10,332 nucleotides of DNA from Granulosicoccaceae bacterium (GTDB lineage Bacteria > Pseudomonadota > Gammaproteobacteria > Granulosicoccales > Granulosicoccaceae). The DNA is taken from positions 1 to 10,332 of the forward strand of contig JALZUX010000699.1 of NCBI GenBank assembly GCA_023301405.1. The letters are read 5' to 3'. Of the stretch, positions 656 through 10,332 are shown piece by piece. Position 1 is the stretch's first letter; each line of letters opens with the position of its first letter. The notes below the pieces were generated by a model that saw only the letters and a list, made by a program, of their open reading frames with translations, searched no databases and was not told where the DNA came from. The position numbers were made by a program, and so were the translations under genes.

Positions 656-1102
656 TTAAAGCAATTTTTTAAAATACACCCGGTTAAAACCATCTTCAAA
701 TCGACGACTGATTTCAATAAATCCGAGGCCTTTGTACCAATCAAGGTTCTCAACCATTTTTTCGTTAGTATATAGGGATACTGTATCGAAACCCCTTTGC
801 TTAGCCTGCAATTGCACAGCTTCTATTAAAAGTCTGCCAACGCCGCCACCTTGATTGTCAGGGGCAACCGCAATATTTTCCAGATGAAAATCACCACCCA
901 ATGGGTAACACACGGCAAAGGCAATTGGCGCAGCATTGTCAATCGCCACTATCACTTTCTTTGCGGTTATTTGCGCCGCAAAGTCTGCCACCATCGGGGC
1001 AGGTGCTTTGCCAATGCGGTCAATGTATTTTACGTAAGCTAGCTGCGCACACGCTTGCACAAATGCACAATCTGCTGCAGTCGCTAGACGAATACTTATC
1101 AT
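656..1102 (-). CDS. GNAT-family N-acetyltransferase
   Basis: This 148-residue protein is a single-domain acetyl-CoA-dependent acetyltransferase and probably cytosolic. The acetyl-CoA-binding motif A is clear: LENIAVAP at residues 74-81 followed by NQGGGVGRLL at 83-92, the Q/G-x-x-G-x-G pyrophosphate loop. Further on, LYTNEKMVEN (110-119), Tyr123 and the FNRVYFKKLL tail match a common uncharacterised GNAT subfamily that also carries a PAPM motif near residue 34. The length is normal for the family. The start codon follows the stop of the spermidine-synthase-like gene after one base, with only GGCGGA as a weak ribosome site, so translation is probably coupled to the upstream gene. The tight pairing suggests the substrate could be a polyamine or its product, but no residue shows this; a general amine or peptide substrate is equally possible. 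Confidence 0.9.
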   Translation of the reverse strand: MISIRLATAADCAFVQACAQLAYVKYIDRIGKAPAPMVADFAAQITAKKVIVAIDNAAPIAFAVCYPLGGDFHLENIAVAPDNQGGGVGRLLIEAVQLQAKQRGFDTVSLYTNEKMVENLDWYKGLGFIEISRRFEDGFNRVYFKKLL

Positions 1103-1103
1103 T

Positions 1104-2687
1104 TTATCCGCCGGGCGCGGGAAGCGGAACCTGTGCGCGGTTAAGCGCTTCCCAGCCTTCCCTATAATAATTAATTATAGGCAGAGACTGATTTCGATTC
1201 ACCTCTACCGGTAAACGCGGAAGGTCAGGAGGTAACGTTAAGATGCGATCCATTGAATTTTCGTTTAGGTACTCACCTGCATAAGGGGCTCTAGCCGGGC
1301 TTTGTAATGAGTGTTGAGCGCCGATAAAAAAGCCCCACAAACCAAATGACGGAACATACACCGTGGCGGGGCGCACATGACTAAAAACAACTTCCATCGT
1401 GGCACCTATACTCCAAAACGCTCGTCGCGCAAACCAGGGGGAAGTCGCCTGGGTGATCATCACACCGCCAACAGCCAGCCTACGAGCCACACGCTCATAA
1501 AAGGCCACACTGTAAAGCTTAGCTACATCTTCGCTCTCAGGGTCTGGCAAATCAATAATCACCAAGTTAAAAACATCACCCTGCTCTCTTAGCCATTGCC
1601 AGGCATCCTGGTTAACCACAGTGACTTTTGAGTTATCTAGTGATTGCTGATTCAGCATCTTTAATTGCGTGTGCGTTCTAGCAAGGTTCGTCACTGCCGG
1701 ATCAAGGTCAACCACAATTATTTCTGTCACTGACTGATAGCGTAATAGCTCTCTAACTGCCAGACCATCACCACCACCAATCACTAAAACACGATCAAGG
1801 CGGGCCGTAAAAGAAGCTGGCAGATGCACCAGTACTTCGTGATATCGATATTCATCAACACTTGAAAATTGCAAATTTCCGTCAAGGAATAAACGCAGAT
1901 CATCACCCTGCTTACTCATAACAAGCTTTTGATAACGGCTCTGTTCAGAATGTATCACCGGGTCTTCATAAAGTGCATTTTCAAATAGCTCTGCCGCCGG
2001 GTTTGCCCACAAGGCAGTGGCTACTAATAAAACGATGGCGATGACAGAACCACTAGCCACTTGAAGCTTCCACTTGCCCAGCTGATCCTTAAAACTCCAC
2101 GCCACGATAAGGGCGACCAACAAGTTTATACCGCCAATTGCACTGGCCGTTAACAGATGACCTAAGTACGGTAAAAGAATAAACGGAAACAGGGCTGATG
2201 CCAGCAGCGCGCCAAAATAATCAAAACTCATTACCTGACTTATGCCCCGCCGAAGACCGCTGCGCGACTCGAGTATTCGAGTCAGTAGCGGCAACTCCAT
2301 GCCCACCAATATGCCAATGGCGGCGATAGTAATGAGCATCGCCGGATAATAAAAGCTAGTCCATGCGTAAACGCCATACAGCACCATGGCAGAGATACCA
2401 CCCACTGCACCGATGGCTATTTCAATAGCGACGAAAGCCGGTATCAGATCACGCTCAATGGACTGGGAAAACCACGCACCGACCCCCATAAAAAATAAAA
2501 ACAATCCAATCGTCAGGGAATAATGAATCACGCTTGAGCCAAGCAAGTAAGTAGACAAACTACTGATTAAGAGTTCATAAATTAGACTGCAGGCAGCAAT
2601 AATAAAAATTGACCCACTAAGCAATACAAACTGATTTTGCGTGACTACCGACGAATCAGACAGATTCTCCGCACTCAGATCATTCAT
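1104..2687 (-). CDS. Membrane-anchored spermidine-synthase-like aminopropyltransferase
   Basis: This 527-residue protein has an N-terminal half with about seven hydrophobic segments (roughly 19-42, 52-72, 82-104, 112-135, 155-178, 180-198, 208-228), followed by a cytosolic spermidine synthase domain at about 235-460. Aminopropyltransferases move an aminopropyl group from decarboxylated S-adenosylmethionine to an amine. Most key elements are visible: LDGNLQ (268-273), DEYRYHE (278-284) with the substrate-binding Tyr-His, the SAM loop VIGGGDG (302-308), Asp327 in VVDLDP where soluble enzymes usually have Glu, DLPDP (379-383) in place of DSTDP but keeping both acidic residues, and GLWGF (449-453). 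A tail of about 65 residues extends past the domain. Transferase chemistry is therefore plausible, with an altered amine pocket. The ATG at 2687 lacks a good Shine-Dalgarno; the reading frame from the repeat region ends over it, so coupling is possible. No AdoMet decarboxylase gene is in the window. Confidence 0.92.
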   Translation of the reverse strand: MNDLSAENLSDSSVVTQNQFVLLSGSIFIIAACSLIYELLISSLSTYLLGSSVIHYSLTIGLFLFFMGVGAWFSQSIERDLIPAFVAIEIAIGAVGGISAMVLYGVYAWTSFYYPAMLITIAAIGILVGMELPLLTRILESRSGLRRGISQVMSFDYFGALLASALFPFILLPYLGHLLTASAIGGINLLVALIVAWSFKDQLGKWKLQVASGSVIAIVLLVATALWANPAAELFENALYEDPVIHSEQSRYQKLVMSKQGDDLRLFLDGNLQFSSVDEYRYHEVLVHLPASFTARLDRVLVIGGGDGLAVRELLRYQSVTEIIVVDLDPAVTNLARTHTQLKMLNQQSLDNSKVTVVNQDAWQWLREQGDVFNLVIIDLPDPESEDVAKLYSVAFYERVARRLAVGGVMITQATSPWFARRAFWSIGATMEVVFSHVRPATVYVPSFGLWGFFIGAQHSLQSPARAPYAGEYLNENSMDRILTLPPDLPRLPVEVNRNQSLPIINYYREGWEALNRAQVPLPAPGG

Positions 2688-2761
2688 GGCAGGTGTGCCG
2701 CATAATTAAACCACAATGATTCAGCCACCAAGGTAGCCGTGTGAAAGGGACAAATGGAAGG

Positions 2762-2919
2762 CGGACAGCTTGGTGGCGGCCCGGCAGCAGAAGCTTCGCG
2801 AAGGTGTGAGATTTCAAGCTAGATATTTCGATCGATAGAGGCAAGTAGTTGTTCTTCTTTAACGAAATCGATCGCAATAGTTTGCCGAAAGATCGCTTCC
2901 GCTGTAGATCATTCATTCT
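2762..2919 (-). repeat. Degenerate tandem repeat, copy nearest the aminopropyltransferase gene
   Basis: On the plus strand the unit begins with CGGACAG and runs 158 bases to the next CGGACAG. Its core at 2807-2895 aligns without gaps to 2970-3058 of the neighbouring copy at about 80% identity counted by eye, including the identical block TTCTTCTTTAACGAAA (2852-2867). Inverted arms CGATCGAT (2829-2836) and ATCGATCG (2867-2874) flank that block and can form an 8-bp stem. The palindrome CTTCGCGAAG lies at 2794-2803. Confidence 0.8.
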
Positions 2920-3081
2920 CGGACAGCCACATAGGTGGCGGTCCGGGAATTGGAATTGCAACGAGACTGTAAGATTTCGAGACAGATCTTTCGTTCGATT
3001 GAGGCGAATAGTCATTCTTCTTTAACGAAAAAGATCGTAATAGCTGGCCGAAAGACCGTGACCACAGTAGATTGTAATTCT
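2920..3081 (-). repeat. Degenerate tandem repeat, copy nearest the DUF350 gene
   Basis: This 162-base unit is the second copy. It starts with an 11-bp hairpin with one mismatch: arms 2920-2930 and 2935-2945 around a four-base loop. The internal stem seen in the other copy is kept with different bases: GATCTTTCGTT (2985-2995) pairs with 3024-3036 apart from a two-base bulge, enclosing the conserved TTCTTCTTTA block. Keeping pairing while the bases change suggests a selected RNA or DNA structure. A third CGGACAG at 3082-3088 begins a decayed further copy. Confidence 0.8.
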
Positions 3082-3155
3082 CGGACAGTCGCCTAACTGC
3101 CCTCGAATAACTAACCAGAACGAACGCTGCGTTACGCGCCGGTTCCAGACGGGCA

Positions 3156-3443
3156 CTAGCTAACCAGCACACTCGCAATGATAATGCAGACGCCCAGCAT
3201 CATAGAGCCTGCAAGAATTGCCAATGCCCGGTTTTCTTTGTGTGCGACTTCTTCAGCAAGACTGCCTGGAGTCAACCAGTCGACCACCTTAAAGCCCACA
3301 ACCCCCATCACGATACCCACCGCAGAGTAGACAACCGTAGACAGTAACTCAGTGGCGAAATCAGCCATTCCCGTTTGTGCAAACGCAGGTGCACTGACTG
3401 TTGCCAACAGTAATAACCCCAGAACATGGGCACGTCTTTTCAT
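3156..3443 (-). CDS. DUF350 (YjfL-type) small membrane protein
   Basis: The protein has 95 residues. Residues 1-22 look like a cleavable signal peptide (positive MKRR, hydrophobic core, APAFA before QTG). Two membrane segments follow at about 33-55 and 73-94. The connecting loop FKVVDWLTPGSLAEEVAHKE and the segment NRALAILAGSMMLGVCIIIA match the DUF350 pattern, in which a polar loop with a conserved Asn leads into a glycine-containing helix. The family's biochemical role is unknown. E. coli YjfL belongs to it and lies near a PspA-like gene and a glutathionylspermidine-synthase-like gene, so a membrane and polyamine link recurs. The ATG at 3443 is set by GGAG at 3453-3450, six bases upstream. 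It follows the 59-residue microprotein gene by 36 bases and precedes the repeat-filled gap. Confidence 0.88.
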   Translation of the reverse strand: MKRRAHVLGLLLLATVSAPAFAQTGMADFATELLSTVVYSAVGIVMGVVGFKVVDWLTPGSLAEEVAHKENRALAILAGSMMLGVCIIIASVLVS

Positions 3444-3449
3444 TGAATT

Positions 3450-3453
3450 CTCC
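3450..3453 (-). promoter_or_regulatory. Ribosome-binding site of the DUF350 gene
   Basis: The sequence GGAG on the minus strand sits six bases before the ATG at 3443, fixing the start and giving the full signal peptide. Confidence 0.75.
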
Positions 3454-3479
3454 GTAGAAACTTTTTGATTACTAGTAAA

Positions 3480-3659
3480 TTATTTACCAACACGCGGTCC
3501 GCCCCCAACATAGGTACGCCCTGACTTGGAACGCAGAACTTCTTTGTCGCCTTTACCCGGCACCGCCTCAGCGGAACTACCATTAACCGCATACCAGCTT
3601 GGTAGTCCGACGATGGCAATCAACAGCAATGCGAGCAAAGGATAATGCAGTCTTTTCAT
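3480..3659 (-). CDS. 59-residue exported or membrane microprotein in the DUF4178/DUF350 operon
   Basis: A small frame begins with ATG at 3659-3657, overlapping the TGA of the upstream DUF4178 gene in an ATGA arrangement, and ends with TAA at 3482-3480. This overlap is typical of translational coupling and is the best evidence that it is real. The protein starts MKRLHYPLLALLLIAIVG, a positively charged start and one hydrophobic segment (about 7-20) that could be a signal peptide or a membrane anchor. A short polar tail follows, with LRSKSGRTYVGGGPRVGK at the C-terminus, rich in glycine and basic residues. No known family is recognised. The DUF350 gene begins 36 bases later. If the anchor is uncleaved, the tail would sit in the periplasm near the DUF350 protein. 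A possible role is a subunit or regulator of the complex; this is inference. Confidence 0.75.
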   Translation of the reverse strand: MKRLHYPLLALLLIAIVGLPSWYAVNGSSAEAVPGKGDKEVLRSKSGRTYVGGGPRVGK

Positions 3660-5179
3660 GACAGAGCTCTACCGTTAGCCTTACTTTTTTTAGAGCCTAA
3701 ATAGCGCTTATTTAACTTTAACGCTATTGATGAAGCAGCAGCACTGAGCGACCCCATTTTTGATCGGCACATCATGACTAAAAATAAACTAAAAAAGCCG
3801 GCCAAAATAAAAGGGGTTATCGATGCCTTGTTAGGCTCCATGTGCAAGCGGAAATCAGCAGTTTGGCTGGTAGATTGCTCATCACCATCAATCACCACAG
3901 TATACGTATCAGCTTTATCAACCCTGATATACCAGCTTGCGTTAAGAATTGCCTCTGACCACCGACCATCTGAATCAACCCCGGTCTCACGCCAAAATTC
4001 CAAGTATTTGCTGTAGATGTATTCGTTATCGCTGCTTTGCAATCCTACTTCAACACCAAACCATGAGTTATTGTTAAGCCCGGCTATCGAACCACGCAGC
4101 TTGATGAGTTGCCCTGGTTTATCAACGCTGATCTGCTGCATCACCACTTGCTTATCATTCTTTGACAGTGCGATCGTTTCAAGGGTTTGTTCACCGCCAC
4201 GATTCAACATAAAGGCGCTGGCGGCAAGCAACGGTAGCGCTACCAGTAAACCCCGCATGGTATTGCTCCAGCGGTTTCGGTCGTTGAGCGCCACGTCTTT
4301 CCCCAAACCTTTCAGCATATCTGCGTGGGGGATCATGCTGGATTTTACAAACTCGATCTCTGACACTCTGCCTTTTTCATCAAGGCGTGACTCTACGCTT
4401 GTATAGTAACGCTGCCTAGACGCTGCTTGACCTTGCGACGCTGATGGCAATGCTCTGGATGCACTGCTCTCAGCACTATGATGTTGTTCTTTATGGCGCG
4501 GCTGGTAGCTGAACTCACCTGCAGCGAATTCAAGCTGCCATTCTCCATGCTCAAAGCTACGGTCTTTACTTTCCGGTACGGCGGGCTTTTCAGGGATATA
4601 TTTCTCGGCCCAATAGCGCCTGCTACCATCATCAACCAGCCAGGCCAACTCACGCTGTTTGTTAAGCATCCACCAGCTTGTATAACGCGAAAAGCTGGTT
4701 TCCCAACCATCTTCACTATTATATTCACGTACCCGGCCACTGAATAACTGCACACCGACTGCCTGCCACTGAGCCCCTTTGTAGGTGAAAAAATCACCAA
4801 TGGTGAAATTAGATTCAAGGTCAAGCGATTTATTCCATCGATCAAGCGCTTTGTCGGCGGCCGGATGTTCAGCATCGCAACCACAGTAATGACAAATCAC
4901 ATGCACGGTATTACGACCTTGTTTGGTCAGGCCTCCGCCGCAGTTAACGCACCGAAATATCTCTGCGCTTTCAGGATTAATAACTTTGACGTCGTCAAGC
5001 AGCTTGTCGGTGAGCTTGCGCTTTATGGCATCGAGCTCATTATGAAACTGAGGGTGACTAAGCTGTAAATCAGGAATTGCCTGCAGTGCAGACTGCTCAT
5101 GGCCGTCATCAATATGTGCTTGAAGTGTTCCCAGTAGTTTATCCGGGTGCATTTTGGCTAATCGCGTGGCTGTTTGCAT
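3656..5179 (-). CDS. Zinc-ribbon DUF4178 protein with two membrane segments
   Basis: This 507-residue protein starts with a charged, probably helical region (1-70). A zinc ribbon with CVNC (77-80) and CHYCGC (96-101) follows, then a DUF4178 domain at about 122-200: NFTIGDFFTYKGAQWQAVG, later GWETSFSRYTSWWML, and LAWLVDDGSRRYW. A linker rich in Ser, Gln and His (about 225-260) comes next, then a hydrophobic segment at 307-325, a region of about 125 residues that looks rich in beta strands (330-450), and a second hydrophobic segment at 455-471 before a basic tail. The likely layout is a cytosolic zinc ribbon and DUF4178 domain, a periplasmic loop and a cytosolic tail. DUF4178 has no established biochemical activity. 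The ATG lies 12 bases after the short DUF4178 gene with a weak ribosome site, and its stop overlaps the microprotein start, so it is in the middle of one transcript. Confidence 0.85.
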   Translation of the reverse strand: MQTATRLAKMHPDKLLGTLQAHIDDGHEQSALQAIPDLQLSHPQFHNELDAIKRKLTDKLLDDVKVINPESAEIFRCVNCGGGLTKQGRNTVHVICHYCGCDAEHPAADKALDRWNKSLDLESNFTIGDFFTYKGAQWQAVGVQLFSGRVREYNSEDGWETSFSRYTSWWMLNKQRELAWLVDDGSRRYWAEKYIPEKPAVPESKDRSFEHGEWQLEFAAGEFSYQPRHKEQHHSAESSASRALPSASQGQAASRQRYYTSVESRLDEKGRVSEIEFVKSSMIPHADMLKGLGKDVALNDRNRWSNTMRGLLVALPLLAASAFMLNRGGEQTLETIALSKNDKQVVMQQISVDKPGQLIKLRGSIAGLNNNSWFGVEVGLQSSDNEYIYSKYLEFWRETGVDSDGRWSEAILNASWYIRVDKADTYTVVIDGDEQSTSQTADFRLHMEPNKASITPFILAGFFSLFLVMMCRSKMGSLSAAASSIALKLNKRYLGSKKSKANGRALS

Positions 5180-5191
5180 TGGCTTATCTGA

Positions 5192-5818
5192 TTAGTCCCA
5201 CACCAGCGCAGATGCTGATATTGATTGGCTTTGCGTGATGCTGACATCAAGCCCACTGGCCTCTATTGATATTTCACTGCCATTACCAATCGCGTCAATG
5301 CAAACAACTGACTCGGTCGGTCTGGTTGCAACAGGCAGAGACCCTTCGGTGCCGGCGACCTCTGCGTCGATTCGCTCAGTCACAAACCAGCTGACCCCGC
5401 CTATGTCCAAGCTACTACCGGCATGACTGGCAAGTGCTTTTTCAGGGTCGAGCTGGTAATCAGTCGCTGCATGGAGCTGATAGCTGCCATCATCTTCTTC
5501 AAGCCATTGGTGCTGTCCGTCATCGAATTCCAGCCACCATTCGTCCCAGTAGCCGTCGCTGTACGACACTCTAAGCCGACCTGCCACCACAAATCGGCGA
5601 GGTGAATCGACCTTGGATTCAAGTTTACCGGCTCGACCTAAACGCAATAACGACGGGGCATCGAGCGCGTGCTCGAACAAACCGCCATTAGTCCAGCCAT
5701 TGTTGCTGAAATATACCCAGTTTGCGCAATGCGGGCACTGCAAGCTACGGGTATGTGCAGAGACACCCGCTATCGCCACCCCACAGGACGGGCATGACAG
5801 ATCTGAACTGAAAGCCAT
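5192..5818 (-). CDS. Short zinc-ribbon DUF4178 protein, first gene of the operon
   Basis: The protein has 208 residues. Four cysteines at 9, 12, 28 and 31 (CPSC and CPHC) form an N-terminal zinc ribbon. The DUF4178 domain covers about 58-130: LRLGRAGKLESKVDSPRRF, then FVVAGRLRVSYSDGYWDEWW and DDGQHQWLEEDDGSYQL, which match the family's pattern of an aromatic W-x-E-W segment and a WL-E-G turn. The C-terminal part (about 130-208) is soluble, acidic and serine-rich, and contains a second related block (LDIGGVSWFVTERIDAEVAG) that may be the rest of the fold. No membrane segment is seen, so it should be cytosolic. It is paralogous in architecture to the next gene, suggesting a soluble and a membrane partner. 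A strong GAGGTG sits four bases before the ATG. Confidence 0.87.
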   Translation of the reverse strand: MAFSSDLSCPSCGVAIAGVSAHTRSLQCPHCANWVYFSNNGWTNGGLFEHALDAPSLLRLGRAGKLESKVDSPRRFVVAGRLRVSYSDGYWDEWWLEFDDGQHQWLEEDDGSYQLHAATDYQLDPEKALASHAGSSLDIGGVSWFVTERIDAEVAGTEGSLPVATRPTESVVCIDAIGNGSEISIEASGLDVSITQSQSISASALVWD

Positions 5819-5897: not shown

Positions 5898-5903
5898 ATT
5901 ATA
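5898..5903 (-). promoter_or_regulatory. Candidate -10 box for the DUF4178/DUF350 operon
   Basis: A perfect TATAAT is read on the minus strand 79 bases before the first ATG. The -35 region at 16-18 bases is poor (ACACAT or CACACA), so an activator or another sigma contact would be needed. This is a candidate from sequence only. Confidence 0.4.
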
Positions 5904-5996
5904 TGCTGAAGCGAACCATTATGTGTGTCACGGCGGCAACGCTGGCGACAGTCGCGCAGCAATTGAAGTTTCAACATCAACCTATCGGCACAAACC

Positions 5997-6000
5997 GGAG
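5997..6000 (+). promoter_or_regulatory. Ribosome-binding site selecting a TTG start for the HlyU-family gene
   Basis: GGAG is followed by seven bases and TTG at 6008. No comparable site precedes the in-frame ATG at 5921, so this site decides the start. Confidence 0.6.
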
Positions 6001-6007
6001 AATCAAA

Positions 6008-6316
6008 TTGGCCCTGAAGAATTTGCTCAAATCTATTTTTGGCAGTGGTAGCGAATCTGCCAAAGATCAGGCAAAACCTGAAGACAACCAGGAATATAAG
6101 CAATTCACTATCTCACCAACCCCGATAGCAGAGGGAAGCCAGTTTCGCACGGCAGGCACCATCAGCAAGGATCAGGACGGCGAAATCAAGAGCAGCTCAT
6201 TTGTTCGAGCCGACAATCATTCCAGCCGCGACGCCGCCGTAGAACATGCCGTTAGCAAAGCTAAGCAGATTATCGATGAGCGGGGTGAAGATTTGCTTGC
6301 AAAGAGCCATTGTTAG
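6008..6316 (+). CDS. HlyU-family protein with probable TTG start
   Basis: From the TTG at 6008 the protein is 102 residues. It matches the HlyU family pattern: a short N-terminal ALKNLLKSIFGSG segment, a charged linker, YKQFTISPTP (30-39), EGSQFRTAGTI (42-52), SSFVRADN (63-70), and a C-terminal helix with KAKQIIDERGEDLL (84-97). The family is named after a haemolysin activator, but most members of this Pfam type are of unproven function, so a regulatory role should not be assumed. The same frame is open upstream to 5903, which would add 35 residues with no family similarity; the family usually begins near this leucine-lysine segment. Transcription is divergent from the DUF4178 operon, leaving about 190 bases between them. 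No clear promoter was found for it. Confidence 0.82.
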   Translation: MALKNLLKSIFGSGSESAKDQAKPEDNQEYKQFTISPTPIAEGSQFRTAGTISKDQDGEIKSSSFVRADNHSSRDAAVEHAVSKAKQIIDERGEDLLAKSHC

Positions 6317-6382: not shown

Positions 6383-7012
6383 TCAGTCATCAGCCCCTGA
6401 AGCTTTCTGCCAACACCAAACCCGCATTGGCGGGATGCTTAACAGTTCTAACTGCAAAGTTTTCCAGTCACCGAAGCTGGTCGCTAACCTGGCAACTTGA
6501 GCGCTGAGCTGGTAGGCCACAAAGCGACCATTGGGCGCCAATTGCCGGTGAATGGACTCGACAATTAACGATCCAGTAGCCGGGTCCATGGTGGAAAATG
6601 GAATTCCTGATATGACAACATCTGGAGCCGGAAGTCCGTAATGCTGCAAAATATCGATCAAATCTAACGCGTCGCCATGATGCACAATGCAACGTGGATC
6701 ATCAATCTGACTGACCAACTTATACAAACCTTCGTTCAGCTCTATCGTAAGCAAGGTTGCATCTGCTTTCATGGCGCCCAGAAAATGCCGAGTAGTGCCA
6801 CCGCCACCGGGGCCTAGTTCAACCACTACGTTTGCCGTAGACAGCTTGGCGCTATTACTTATACGTCGCTTAAGAAACCCTGTACTAGGTATAACCGAGC
6901 CAAGCTGCCTCGGGTTCTTAATAAACTGTGCAAAAAACAAGACCGCATTGATCACCTTGCCCACAAAACCTCCCACCACATTTCTCAGTGCCCTTACCAT
7001 TCTGGAGGGCAT
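6383..7012 (-). CDS. PmtA-like SAM-dependent methyltransferase, possibly a phospholipid N-methyltransferase
   Basis: The protein has 209 residues. The N-terminal 50 residues are amphipathic and include FFAQFIKNPRQLGSVIPST, the pattern that opens PmtA-like phosphatidylethanolamine methyltransferases. The Rossmann methyltransferase core follows: VVELGPGGGGTTRHFL (63-78, motif I), the acidic residue Glu91 in TIELNEGL, HHGDALDL (111-118), and VISGIPFSTMDP (133-144, motif IV). PmtA enzymes methylate phosphatidylethanolamine toward phosphatidylcholine at the inner membrane. The same core is shared with rRNA adenine dimethyltransferases, so lipid specificity is inferred from the N-terminal region only. 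AAGG stands just before the ATG at 7012, and a good promoter lies about 100 bases upstream. The gene stands alone, convergent with the HlyU-family gene. Confidence 0.8.
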   Translation of the reverse strand: MPSRMVRALRNVVGGFVGKVINAVLFFAQFIKNPRQLGSVIPSTGFLKRRISNSAKLSTANVVVELGPGGGGTTRHFLGAMKADATLLTIELNEGLYKLVSQIDDPRCIVHHGDALDLIDILQHYGLPAPDVVISGIPFSTMDPATGSLIVESIHRQLAPNGRFVAYQLSAQVARLATSFGDWKTLQLELLSIPPMRVWCWQKASGADD

Positions 7013-7109
7013 CTTACCTTGCTGCGGAAGATGCGCCTGAATTGAGGGCGTAACTTAGCTGAATGTCAGGCGCCGAGCAAACAGTTTGCAGCTTCGACCA
7101 CGTTTTTTT

Positions 7110-7137
7110 ATTATATCTTCAAGGAATACAACGTCTA
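7110..7137 (-). promoter_or_regulatory. Candidate sigma-70 promoter for the PmtA-like gene
   Basis: On the minus strand, TAGACG (7137-7132, four of six matches to TTGACA) is separated by 16 bases from a perfect TATAAT (7115-7110). Transcription would give a leader of about 90 bases before the ATG at 7012. The same AT-rich tract read on the plus strand offers TATTAT (7109-7114) 17 bases after TTGCAG, a weaker candidate for the divergent gene at 7173. Confidence 0.5.
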
Positions 7138-7172
7138 GTCGATACCCACCCCACCGTCTCGTCTGGTTTCCT

Positions 7173-7985
7173 ATGCGTTCTAACCTTCTAACCGCAGTCG
7201 GACTTAGCACCTGTCTGATTTGCGGTAATGCCAACACCGCTGAGCTTAACGATCCACATCAGCAGATATTACTTGCGACCGGCATGACCGGACTGCTGGA
7301 AGTGGTTCCATCAGAAATTATCGAAAGTGCCAATCAACACGCGACACGCTGTAACGCTAGCACAGCCAAAAAACAACTCCCCGTCGACAGCCATGAAAGC
7401 TTGTCACGAACAATGAAACAAAACCTAGCCAGCACCACCACTATTCCAGAAGCTCATGTAATCTTACGTTGGTACCAGTCAACGGCCGGGTCTAAAATTA
7501 CAGCACTTGAGAAACAACCCTCTACCAATAACGAGGTAAAGGCCTTTGTAGAAGATCGATCAAACAACCCCGACTGGATGGCGAACCGGTATTCGTTATT
7601 CAAACGTATCTTTGAGAACACCGGAGCCGGAGCAGTAAATGCGATCATCGGTGTTGAGATTGAATACGCAGGTCAGGTTGTCAGCGGCTGCATTGAACAA
7701 TATGCGCTTGAGCATCAGGCCGAGGCCATCAACGCCGAGCAGGTAATGGCGGACCTGATCCGCAGCGACAAAGAATTAATGATGCTACTTTTCAAGCAGG
7801 ATTCACTTTTCGGCATGGCCTTTACCTTGCGCTCATTAAACACTGCAGAACTCACTGCCTACGCAAACTTTACTGAGCGACATCAAGGTTACTACCGTTC
7901 ACTAGTGCAGTCGTTTGAAATGGCATTAAAAACTTACTCTGACCACTTAGCGACACAACAAGTCGCTATCGCTACTGATGAGTAA
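7173..7985 (+). CDS. Exported protein of unknown function with DUF2059-like motifs
   Basis: From the ATG at 7173 the protein has 270 residues. It opens with a signal peptide, MRSNLLTAVGLSTCLICG, and probable cleavage after ANTA, so it should be periplasmic or secreted. The cysteine context does not fit a lipobox. The mature part is mostly helical and polar. Two segments recall DUF2059: LRWYQSTAGSKITALEKQ near 98-115, and LNTAELTAYANFTERHQG near 222-239, both of the helix plus aromatic-x-S/x-x-G type. Family membership is tentative. The frame also extends upstream to a TTG at 7086, but those residues are basic, resemble no family and would bury the signal peptide. No strong Shine-Dalgarno is present. 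It is convergent with the oxygenase gene, with 35 bases between their stops. Confidence 0.72.
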   Translation: MRSNLLTAVGLSTCLICGNANTAELNDPHQQILLATGMTGLLEVVPSEIIESANQHATRCNASTAKKQLPVDSHESLSRTMKQNLASTTTIPEAHVILRWYQSTAGSKITALEKQPSTNNEVKAFVEDRSNNPDWMANRYSLFKRIFENTGAGAVNAIIGVEIEYAGQVVSGCIEQYALEHQAEAINAEQVMADLIRSDKELMMLLFKQDSLFGMAFTLRSLNTAELTAYANFTERHQGYYRSLVQSFEMALKTYSDHLATQQVAIATDE

Positions 7986-8020
7986 TAACGTACACCAGCT
8001 AACGCGGAGCTTTATTGCTG

Positions 8021-8680
8021 TTAACTTTGCTGTGGTAGCAGTTCATCGGACCATTTAAGCACGATATTAAACGATATCGATATTCTGGGGTCATCTGACA
8101 AGTTAGGGTGAACAAAATGGTGCAGGAATGAAGGCCATAACAAGATACTACCGGCTTGTGGCATTACCGTGTATTCCGCTTCAATTTGCGGATCGTCTTT
8201 TACTGCCGTCATGTTTGCCTGGGGCCTCGGATCATAAAACGAAATAGCACCCGGCCTTCGATCAGCCCTGCCAGCCAGTGCTTTACCGCTCTGAGGCACC
8301 TGCACATAGTAGGTACCACTCAAATAACTGTGCGGATGATTATGCAAATCATGGTAGTCACCAAAACGATTAACGTTTGGCCAACTTTGCACGTGCCACT
8401 CAGCTTTATAGCGCTGCCCCGATTCATGCAAATAGTCGACTACTGTTTTATTTACACACTGCAACAGCCACTGCGTTGCCGGATGTTGCTGCTGCAGAAA
8501 ACCAGTTGACAAGTAATTAGTGGTTAGATTTTCCTGTTCTGTGTCCATACGCAGAATCAGCATCTGTAGAAGATCAGTGGGTTTTTCGTAACCCGGCAAC
8601 TGACGCTGCATAAAGTGCGTTGGCCATAGTTTCAGCATACCTGTACTGGTGATCGCACGACCTGCTTTTTGATCAGGCAA
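8021..8680 (-). CDS. TIGR02466-type putative 2-oxoglutarate/Fe(II) oxygenase with probable TTG start
   Basis: The protein has 219 residues from a TTG at 8680. Its second half shows the double-stranded beta-helix signature of the TIGR02466/2OG-FeII_Oxy_5 family: WPNVNRFGDYHDLHNHPHS (100-118) leading into YLSGTYYVQVP, AISFYDPRPQ (145-154), and then GSILLWPSFLHHFVHPN (177-193) and RISISFN (199-205). His113 or His115 and His188 are the likely iron ligands, and Arg199 the likely 2-oxoglutarate contact. Members of this family are often phage or bacterial enzymes with unknown hydroxylation targets. The start is supported by GGAG seven bases upstream; an internal ATG at 8638 with a weak site is the alternative and would remove 14 residues that carry no family motif. 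The gene has its own 190-base upstream gap. Confidence 0.85.
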   Translation of the reverse strand: MPDQKAGRAITSTGMLKLWPTHFMQRQLPGYEKPTDLLQMLILRMDTEQENLTTNYLSTGFLQQQHPATQWLLQCVNKTVVDYLHESGQRYKAEWHVQSWPNVNRFGDYHDLHNHPHSYLSGTYYVQVPQSGKALAGRADRRPGAISFYDPRPQANMTAVKDDPQIEAEYTVMPQAGSILLWPSFLHHFVHPNLSDDPRISISFNIVLKWSDELLPQQS

Positions 8681-8687
8681 TTATGTT

Positions 8688-8691
8688 CTCC
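8688..8691 (-). promoter_or_regulatory. Ribosome-binding site selecting the TTG start of the oxygenase gene
   Basis: GGAG on the minus strand precedes the TTG at 8680 with seven bases between. It is the same layout as at the HlyU-family gene in this window. Confidence 0.6.
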
Positions 8692-8872
8692 GGCTATGTC
8701 ATACCCACCACCTGACAGAGATGGCGTTGAGCGCTTATTCTTACACACACTTCACTACCATTAACTCAAGCGGCAGCAATAATTTACCGTTCACACATTC
8801 TTTAAGGCTATCACCCACCTACGACTAGCAGGCAAAGTCAACTGAGCAGCCTGGTTACCCCCAGCACTCTGG

Positions 8873-9322
8873 TTAGCTAAGAACGAAAAAGAAGCCTGTA
8901 TTGTACCAGCAGTGCAAAATGATGCACGGCAATACACTGTCATGACGCTCACGAAAATAGCCAAACACAACGGACGGAAAAAATACCGCAGCTGCCCACA
9001 ACGGCGGCTGATTGAATAAATGCAATGCGGCAAAAATAACACTTGTGGTGACATTAGCTAGACTGACACCGGCAAGCTGTTTTTTGGCAACTTGAACTGT
9101 GTCTAGTAACCACGACTGCACAAAACCCCTGAAGGCAAGTTCCTCGAGTATCGGGTACATCAGGCAAACGGTAAGCAGCATTATTATGTCGAGCGACGAT
9201 GCTGAATTCAATGGCAGGAAATACAATACCACCCACACGCAGGGACCAAGCGCTAACGCAACAAGGAAGTGAGGATCAGTAAAAAAACGCTTCATAAAAC
9301 CAACCAGATAGTATAAGCGCAT
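8873..9322 (-). CDS. CPBP/glutamic-type intramembrane protease, resembling MrtJ-like sorting proteases
   Basis: This 149-residue membrane protein carries all three active-site motifs of the CPBP (Abi/CAAX-like) family: EELAFR with Glu60, Glu61 and Arg65; FAALH ending in His101; and HCWYN with His137 and Asn141. Hydrophobic segments lie at about 18-37, 44-60, 90-100, 108-122 and 130-147. The short length and the run HLFNQPPLWAAAVFFPSVVF followed by GYFRERHDS resemble glutamic-type proteases tied to JDVT-CTERM protein sorting, in which the enzyme cuts a C-terminal anchor of surface proteins. That assignment is from memory of the pattern and is less certain than the CPBP call. No protein with such a C-terminal anchor is encoded in this window. 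The ATG at 9322 lacks a good ribosome site; Met10 is an alternative start. Confidence 0.87.
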   Translation of the reverse strand: MRLYYLVGFMKRFFTDPHFLVALALGPCVWVVLYFLPLNSASSLDIIMLLTVCLMYPILEELAFRGFVQSWLLDTVQVAKKQLAGVSLANVTTSVIFAALHLFNQPPLWAAAVFFPSVVFGYFRERHDSVLPCIILHCWYNTGFFFVLS

Positions 9323-9644: not shown

Positions 9645-10332
9645 CTAATCAACTTCCTTAATAAATATCTGATTAGTCATACCATCTCGATGCGACAATG
9701 CAAATGCCTGCAATTGACTTTGATTCACGCCCTTGGCAATCAGATAATCAACAACAGCAAATCCTCTGACACGTGCCTGCTCGCGCATCAAGTCTGGTAC
9801 ACCGTCCTTGCTATAAGACAATACGGCTATTTTTGAAGCAGGGTGATCAATCATAGTAAAAGCGACAATATTGAGTGAGCTCTTGGCCGTTTCACTAAGA
9901 TCACTTGACTCACCGATAAAACCGACATCCTTAAGAGGTCCGTCTAGCGACTGACAACCGCGCTCATTAACTGGATAACCGATGCGCGAGACACAAGCAT
10001 CCGCATTATCAGGAACACCATCTGCATCTGCATCTTCCACCATTGCTGGCTCTGGCGGCTGCGTGCTGGCAGGCACAACGAGGACTGATGCAGGCACCGG
10101 TACGATTGGCGATACCGCAGCAATTGATTGAGCGCTTACCTGCTGCACCGCAATTGCTTGCTGATTAGTCACAGTAAGTGGCTGTACTTCAACCCAAACC
10201 CCGTCTACCGGTAAAACTGACCCCACATCAGCAACCCGCTCTACATCATCAACAACAGAGTCTGCTTCAACCACAGCAACCGGCTCTACATCATCAACAA
10301 CAGAGTTTGCTTCAACCACAGCAACCGGCTCT
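9645..10332 (-). CDS. C-terminal part of an envelope protein with a thrombospondin type-3 motif and a degenerate OmpA-like domain
   Basis: The frame is open to the right edge, so the start and N-terminus are missing; at least 228 residues are seen. In order they are: a 15-residue tandem repeat (EPVAVVEADSVVDDV and a near-copy), a Val/Ala/Pro-rich stretch, one calcium-binding-type thrombospondin-3 motif DADADGVPDNADAC (about 9993-10037) followed by YPVNERGCQ, and an OmpA-like C-terminal domain. That domain keeps the arginine and ending of the family (RVRGFAVVDYLIAKGV), but the segment that normally reads GHTD is SYSK (about 9807-9818), so the peptidoglycan-binding Asp appears to be Lys. Full-length relatives are outer-membrane or periplasmic proteins that anchor to the cell wall; binding may be lost here. 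No strong neighbour link is seen. Confidence 0.82.
   Translation of the reverse strand, partial: EPVAVVEANSVVDDVEPVAVVEADSVVDDVERVADVGSVLPVDGVWVEVQPLTVTNQQAIAVQQVSAQSIAAVSPIVPVPASVLVVPASTQPPEPAMVEDADADGVPDNADACVSRIGYPVNERGCQSLDGPLKDVGFIGESSDLSETAKSSLNIVAFTMIDHPASKIAVLSYSKDGVPDLMREQARVRGFAVVDYLIAKGVNQSQLQAFALSHRDGMTNQIFIKEVD
10242..10331 (-). repeat. 45-bp in-frame coding tandem repeat
   Basis: Bases 10242-10286 and 10287-10331 are two adjacent 45-base copies differing at one base, an Asp-to-Asn change. A partial, more diverged copy (encoding ERVADV) follows toward the C-terminus. The array probably continues past the window edge. Confidence 0.88.

Follow-up and report, generated by a model that had tools for sequence, protein, structure and literature searches.

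An aminopropyltransferase operon of Granulosicoccaceae bacteria with a lysine-ended microprotein as candidate acceptor

The DNA analysed here (10,332 nt, below called the window) is the entire contig JALZUX010000699.1 (C699) from the 704-contig, 86% complete genome of a Granulosicoccaceae bacterium, assembly GCA_023301405.1. On its minus strand lie genes for two zinc-ribbon proteins (ZnR208 and Big507), a 59-aa transmembrane (TM) microprotein (micro59), a DUF350 membrane protein, a membrane-bound aminopropyltransferase (APT) and a GNAT acetyltransferase. With moderate confidence, and from sequence comparison only, we read them as an APT operon in which the acceptor would be a small exported protein whose C-terminal Lys is aminopropylated in dependence on decarboxylated S-adenosylmethionine (dcAdoMet). 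Among the encoded proteins, micro59 seems the strongest candidate for the target of modification. Somewhat more tentatively, the operon may represent a widespread bacterial post-translational modification, in which an extracytoplasmic, membrane-anchored APT builds one or more aminopropyl units on the C-terminal Lys of exported tails.

Conservation of the module and of the lysine-ended tail

Gene order was compared in 26 loci collected with a profile of the 507-aa protein. The order ZnR208-Big507-micro59-DUF350-APT was found in all 17 Granulosicoccaceae-type loci long enough (L002-L016, L018, L019), and the module also occurs in altered form in other phyla; the original prediction, which had been made from the sequence of the window alone, expected these genes to co-occur in a conserved order, and this is borne out. 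An APT was present in 19 of the 20 family genomes with Big507; in the remaining one, G016, a contig end cuts the match short at residue 404. Leucothrix and one Bdellovibrionales genome carry the same genes, micro59 giving a weak phmmer match (Leucothrix) or none. The Chloroflexi loci keep the order of ZnR, Big-like protein and APT, with DUF350 past the APT on the opposite strand in L023-L025; no DUF350 gene was found at locus L027. Judged by record titles, such operons span five phyla or more (Pseudomonadota, Bdellovibrionota, Nitrospirota, Chloroflexota and Gemmatimonadota). Alteromonas mediterranea is one further carrier of the operon. In Chloroflexi a DUF2617 gene adjoins DUF350 (L024 13399-13935, PF10936, 40.5 bits; L023 14366-14950, by likeness), and a Band-7/SHOCT protein is encoded at the head of the Bdellovibrionota module (L145 7003-8085), with similar-looking genes in L146, L147 and L148.

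Neighbourhoods were counted in 60 loci, a part of the collection and not phylogenetically independent, using phmmer (E <= 1e-4) with few queries. PspA was near the APT in 11 of these and GNAT in 14; within the family, GNAT follows the APT in 5 of the 17 loci and in the window, some contigs ending too early to tell. The acetyltransferase, taken for a core part in the original prediction, is better regarded as accessory, although it recurs in a second type of APT locus in the family. There (L160-L164), a four-gene unit consists of AdoMet decarboxylase (AdoMetDC), a GNAT of about 270 aa, a Lys-ended lipoprotein and the APT, and no DUF350 or DUF4178 match was obtained within 6 kb of the APT.

The 59-aa open reading frame (ORF) is a real gene, since it has 43 homologs of 49-59 aa that are 66-100% identical and share the conserved tail. 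GK forms the C-terminal end in 42 of the 43, the exception being P0124 (49 aa, from a 2-kb contig), which has no terminal Lys. By pattern search, the corresponding gap in other phyla, from the DUF4178 gene to DUF350/APT, was found to encode a small TM protein of different sequence but like end, which is GGGPSSGK in Leucothrix, GGGMRSGK in Bdellovibrionales, GGGPSGGK in Chloroflexi and GGGPRAGK in Nitrospiria. Further modules, on plasmid records and in Chloroflexi, encode Lys-ended lipoproteins, fused tails and microproteins, and the L160-L164 lipoproteins end in SGSHSRGK, SGSHSIGK or SGSHSVGK. The exported small tail proteins that accompany the APT are thus of several sequence types which phmmer does not connect and which share the Lys end. 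We define the class by an exported or TM protein encoded with the 7TM-APT and ending in Lys, and micro59 has both features. No Pfam match was obtained for the tail lipoproteins of L063 and L126, and none above cut-off for that of L079.

When all ORFs of the gap intervals were listed regardless of their ending, the longest hydrophobic one ended in Lys in 20 of 21 intervals (L023 was missed by the interval rule); a few shorter hydrophobic ORFs, read in other frames, have different last residues, e.g. Pro in a 35-aa ORF of L063. Another 25 loci were chosen by the APT profile alone, 15, 5 and 5 being taken from three groups with 22, 7 and 8 candidate rows; loci already covered, partial matches and G728 (266 bits) were dropped. 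A linked tail protein was found in 20 of these 25 loci, all 20 Lys-ended, in a set that holds like APTs because the profile was built from module APTs. In four loci (three genomes) the lipoprotein profile located an unlinked, Lys-ended tail beside DUF350 elsewhere in the genome; the one remaining locus, L133, has no tail gene within reach, and the profile gave no match in its genome (G351). The tail list excludes L017, L020 and L035 (contigs ending before the tail gene), L080 (an APT fragment), L083 and L086 (no APT), L084 (a near copy of L082) and the second copies L034 and L036-L040.

Among 66 tails, located by Lys-ended keys, acidic residues are absent from the last 12 positions (0/792), 5 of the 66 have a second Lys between positions -12 and -2, and 14% of the tail is Arg. 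As background, Lys is the last residue in 2 of 51 APT, 3 of 74 ZnR208 and 5 of 82 Big507 sequences. That Lys is spared elsewhere in the tail and fixed at its end argues for its conservation as an amine, beyond mere charge.

The enzyme, its donor and rival readings

The APT matches the NCBIfam family NF002956 (polyamine aminopropyltransferase) with 585.3 bits against a cut-off of 472 and contains seven hydrophobic segments, in agreement with the membrane-bound enzyme originally predicted. Its catalytic part has the spermidine-synthase fold, matches to solved enzymes beginning near residue 230. The residues Q253, Y282, D307, D329, D361, D379 and D382, which presumably contact dcAdoMet and the amine as in solved enzymes, are kept in 51 of 51 sequences. 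Hints of a defence system from PADLOC, namely mad2 (mads_2; E 8.6e-18, APT residues 296-443), GajA (0.012) and PDC-M11A (0.0026, for GNAT), were rejected and taken as shared Rossmann and GNAT folds, since the whole-protein family NF002956 scores 585 bits.

The suggested link to aminopropyl chemistry is supported. AdoMetDC (PF02675) was found in 20 of 23 APT-bearing family genomes as compared with 5 of 25 without APT (Fisher p 3e-6). The decarboxylase gene lies within 6 kb of the APT in 15 of the 60 loci, and in genus g4 it is divergent beside the module.

In the mechanism we propose, AdoMetDC, encoded elsewhere or adjacent, would make dcAdoMet, and the 7TM APT, with its catalytic domain predicted on the outer face of the inner membrane, would take up this donor, perhaps via its own TM domain or DUF350. 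The enzyme would then add at least one 3-aminopropyl group to the epsilon-amine of the tail's C-terminal Lys, here that of micro59 (GGGPRVGK). The Lys side chain is an aminobutylamine, the same group that an aminopropyltransferase meets in putrescine. From this chemistry, an aminopropyl unit on Lys would create spermidine spacing at the protein end, giving a spermidine-like tip, N-C4-N-C3-N, and a predicted mass shift of +57.058 Da per unit on one residue. In some lineages GNAT might cap or tune the product, and the DUF4178/zinc-ribbon proteins (elsewhere PspA-CesT) might couple the modified tail to the membrane state.

Several points weigh against this reading. We know of no route for exported dcAdoMet, which a catalytic domain outside would need, and the terminal Lys could instead serve binding or processing. 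In the AlphaFold2 (AF2) secondary structure, APT residues 145-198 form one helix, which would therefore leave six TM segments and the catalytic domain inside. The charges of some loops are also less clear: loop 2 is net positive in 28, loop 4 in 39 and loop 5, meant to lie outside, in 25 of 51 sequences. The sampling of tails also calls for caution: a survey keyed on Lys ends, as for the 66 tails, cannot reveal exceptions, the tails of L023 and L076 were found only through scans favouring Lys ends, that of L148, too weakly hydrophobic for the hydropathy limit, was chosen by eye, and L140 and L145 each have a second, overlapping hydrophobic ORF without a Lys end. No AdoMetDC was detected in this 86%-complete genome or in G014 (98% complete), and PF02675 was not found in four of four Chloroflexi module genomes checked. 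The absence of AdoMetDC from the window, noted in the original prediction, is a small obstacle, given the gene's frequency in APT-bearing family genomes and its place near the APT in loci elsewhere.

It is possible, though doubtful, that the APT acts at the membrane as a maker or sensor of free polyamine, with the Lys tail as a pseudo-substrate, docking or regulatory arm in the acceptor site. Polyamine could then displace the tail as part of an envelope-stress sensor, in line with a proposal linked to the phage shock protein (PSP) system: Ravi 2024 (PMC11237479) proposes, in the part that deals with these operons, monitoring of polyamines or aminopropylation. The NF002956 score, the spermidine-synthase fold and PspA near the APT (11 of 60 loci) agree with such a role. 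However, the AdoMetDC-GNAT-tail-APT unit has neither a diamine-making enzyme nor PspA (the wider neighbourhood was not surveyed for diamine enzymes), and no tail in the gap-interval and APT-picked sets ends in Arg, although Arg is the common basic residue there. An invariant Lys as the final residue, preceded by a variable Gly/Ser/Arg tail, would also suit a signal for sorting, assembly or processing that a protease or the complex reads, without aminopropylation. This appears unlikely to us, as tail types unconnected by phmmer share both the Lys end and the APT, and the neighbours in L125-L127 and L160-L164 are GNAT, tail and APT (plus AdoMetDC in L160-L164), with no protease or sortase.

Very unlikely, in our view, is a lipid or another envelope component as the aminopropylated target, the tail and DUF4178 proteins being assembly parts. 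The enzyme is membrane-embedded, and the neighbouring methyltransferase gene at 6383-7012 weakly resembles phospholipid N-methyltransferases, with scores below cut-offs; yet the four-gene unit contains no lipid enzyme, a weak argument as lipid genes were not surveyed across loci. With this same limit, nothing pointing to the lipid target considered in the original prediction was found. Hardly any credence is given to a catalytically idle APT retained as scaffold: the donor gene was not found in some module genomes, but the catalytic residues are kept throughout (51/51).

Should the tail Lys be the acceptor, the NF002956 name would be wrong for these operons, as would polyamine pathways inferred from it. 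The DUF350/DUF4178/PspA operons would acquire a concrete biochemical function in the form of an envelope protein with a polyamine tip, and the occurrence of AdoMetDC and 'spermidine synthase' genes beside PspA, DUF350 and DUF4178 in envelope operons would be explained. A 59-residue ORF that is at best a 'hypothetical protein' in the homolog listing would become a probable substrate.

Organisation of the window

The ORF list agrees with the six genes and joints originally described; along the module the joints are 12 nt, a 4-nt overlap, 36, 468 and 1 nt (Table 1). Pfam scores above cut-off confirmed the DUF350 (PF03994, 57.0 bits, cut-off 26) and PF01564 (133.2 bits, cut-off 22.9) assignments, and GNAT matches PF13508 with 48.2 bits (cut-off 27).

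Table 1 Features of the module in the window
Feature	Position	Strand	Remarks
ZnR208, zinc-ribbon DUF4178 protein, 208 aa, no evident TM	5192..5818	-	PF13785; at least 74 homologs among the matches listed
Big507, zinc ribbon, derived DUF4178, TM, predicted outside domain, TM	3656..5179	-	507 aa
micro59, single-TM tail protein, 59 aa, C-terminus VGGGPRVGK	3480..3659	-	proposed acceptor
micro59 codons for C-terminal GGGPRVGK; last Lys codon 3483-3485	3483..3506	-	read from sequence
DUF350 (YjfL-like) membrane protein, signal-like N-terminal segment by eye	3156..3443	-	PF03994
Intergenic stretch, two ~120-nt direct repeat copies	2688..3155	.	about 2805-2926 and 2968-3088, 79% alike
APT (membrane aminopropyltransferase), 7 hydrophobic segments and spermidine-synthase domain from about residue 240	1104..2687	-	
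GNAT acetyltransferase, accessory	656..1102	-	PF13508

The pair of zinc-ribbon DUF4178 proteins was recovered in part by Pfam: ZnR208 reaches 41.2 bits with PF13785 (cut-off 25), and none of the 34 members of the Big507 alignment gives a gathering-score match. By hhalign, the profile of Big507 can be aligned with the 208-aa family (probability 90.8, E 1.2e-6), and the same-place proteins in L061, L024 and L144 pass PF13785 (L146, with 22.2, stays below). The DUF4178 label for Big507 is therefore right by descent. Its zinc ribbon, C77/C80/C96/C99, forms invariant columns, and its predicted outside domain, flanked by two TM segments read by eye, carries the motif EFWRETGVDSDGRW. Searched by sequence against solved structures, Big507 matched solely the RNA polymerase subunit P zinc ribbon (E 0.0089). 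The predicted outside domain, with the motif EFWRESGxDSDGxWxE, also occurs as a small Nitrospirota protein with an apparent TM at both ends (L026 9860-10444; L140 9197-9760, a phmmer match), for which Pfam gave no match in L140.

The gap between DUF350 and APT, 468 nt in the window, measures 6-288 nt in 17 relatives. Repeat-like stretches, 77-84% alike, also lie at L008 11409-11536 and L012 1-125, and the repeats may belong to an intergenic element dispersed in these bacteria. On the minus strand of the gap, a terminator-like site (3140-3123) directly follows DUF350 and a promoter-like site (2745-2716) directly precedes the APT, so APT and GNAT may be transcribed apart from the rest of the module in this genome. 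Such matches are no functional evidence; compared with shuffled sequence, promoter-like sites numbered 4 against 6.8 expected and terminator-like sites 13 against 5.9.

Divergent from the module, an HlyU-family gene (5903-6316, plus strand; PF10115, 95.5 bits), which occupies the same place in L037 and L040, is a possible regulator. Methyltransferase, DUF2059, TIGR02466 and Rce1-like genes (6383-9322) are syntenic beside the module in the family, and a contig-end ORF (9645-10319) reads, by appearance, as an OmpA/TSP3-type protein.

Comparison with known systems

Operons of this kind are already known and were noticed recently; the Lys-ended small exported protein is new. In its second group, Ravi 2024 (PMC11237479) describes a PspA-CesT dyad with 7TM-spermine synthase, DUF350, DUF4178 and a 'Ctha_1186' lipoprotein. 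As far as that group is described there, the window shares the 7TM-spermidine-synthase protein, DUF350, DUF4178 and an exported accessory protein, and PspA-bearing layouts like it occur in L026, L063, L128 and others. Unlike the group as presented, the window has DUF4178 duplicated with zinc ribbons, and its exported protein is a 59-aa TM microprotein. No PspA or CesT match was obtained among the window proteins scanned, to which the search was limited (the whole genome was not searched for PspA), and the lipoprotein profile A5 had no match in this genome. The word 'lysine' gave no match in the main text of PMC11237479. Soluble aminopropyltransferases (T. thermophilus 1uir, P. calidifontis 7xif) have the same catalytic fold and aligned residues as the APT, but their chains are without its membrane domain. 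Among the literature matches listed, no title or abstract opening reported that these APTs aminopropylate proteins or have a partner ending in Lys.

Polyamine-type modification of lysine is known from eukaryotes: in eIF5A an internal lysine becomes hypusine by receiving an aminobutyl group from spermidine, and silaffins carry propylamine units on lysine. In 2025, Kulikovsky reportedly described dcAdoMet-dependent tandem aminopropylation for a microcin C of B. subtilis. The diatom silaffins, as covered in PMC6356823, resemble the proposed product in being polyamine-modified proteins but are eukaryotic and modified at internal lysines. Microcin C, in the account of PMC9239234, shares a GNAT (MccE2) in the system and the transfer of aminopropyl to a product derived from a ribosomal peptide; in that case the group goes to the phosphate of a peptidyl nucleotide, and neither a membrane enzyme nor a tail protein is part of that description.

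The E. coli operon yjfIJKLMC shares DUF350 (YjfL) and a PspA-family protein (YjfJ) with the operons described here. No detectable homology was seen between the PspA-type Lys-ended lipoproteins and E. coli YjfM, and among the module's six proteins there was no YjfC/YgiC-type ligase match. In yjf and ygiBC a ligase stands in the place of the APT: by RefSeq product names, YjfC and YgiC are peptide--spermidine ligases, which join a polyamine to a peptide, and the partner tail likewise contains Gly/Ser/Arg. YjfM and YgiB, encoded beside these ligases and inferred to be their substrates, end in GG, not Lys (L087 8388-9026; L167 3-416). The ligases join spermidine to a carboxyl end, and the APT would act on an amine end as their counterpart; in logic the parallel is close.

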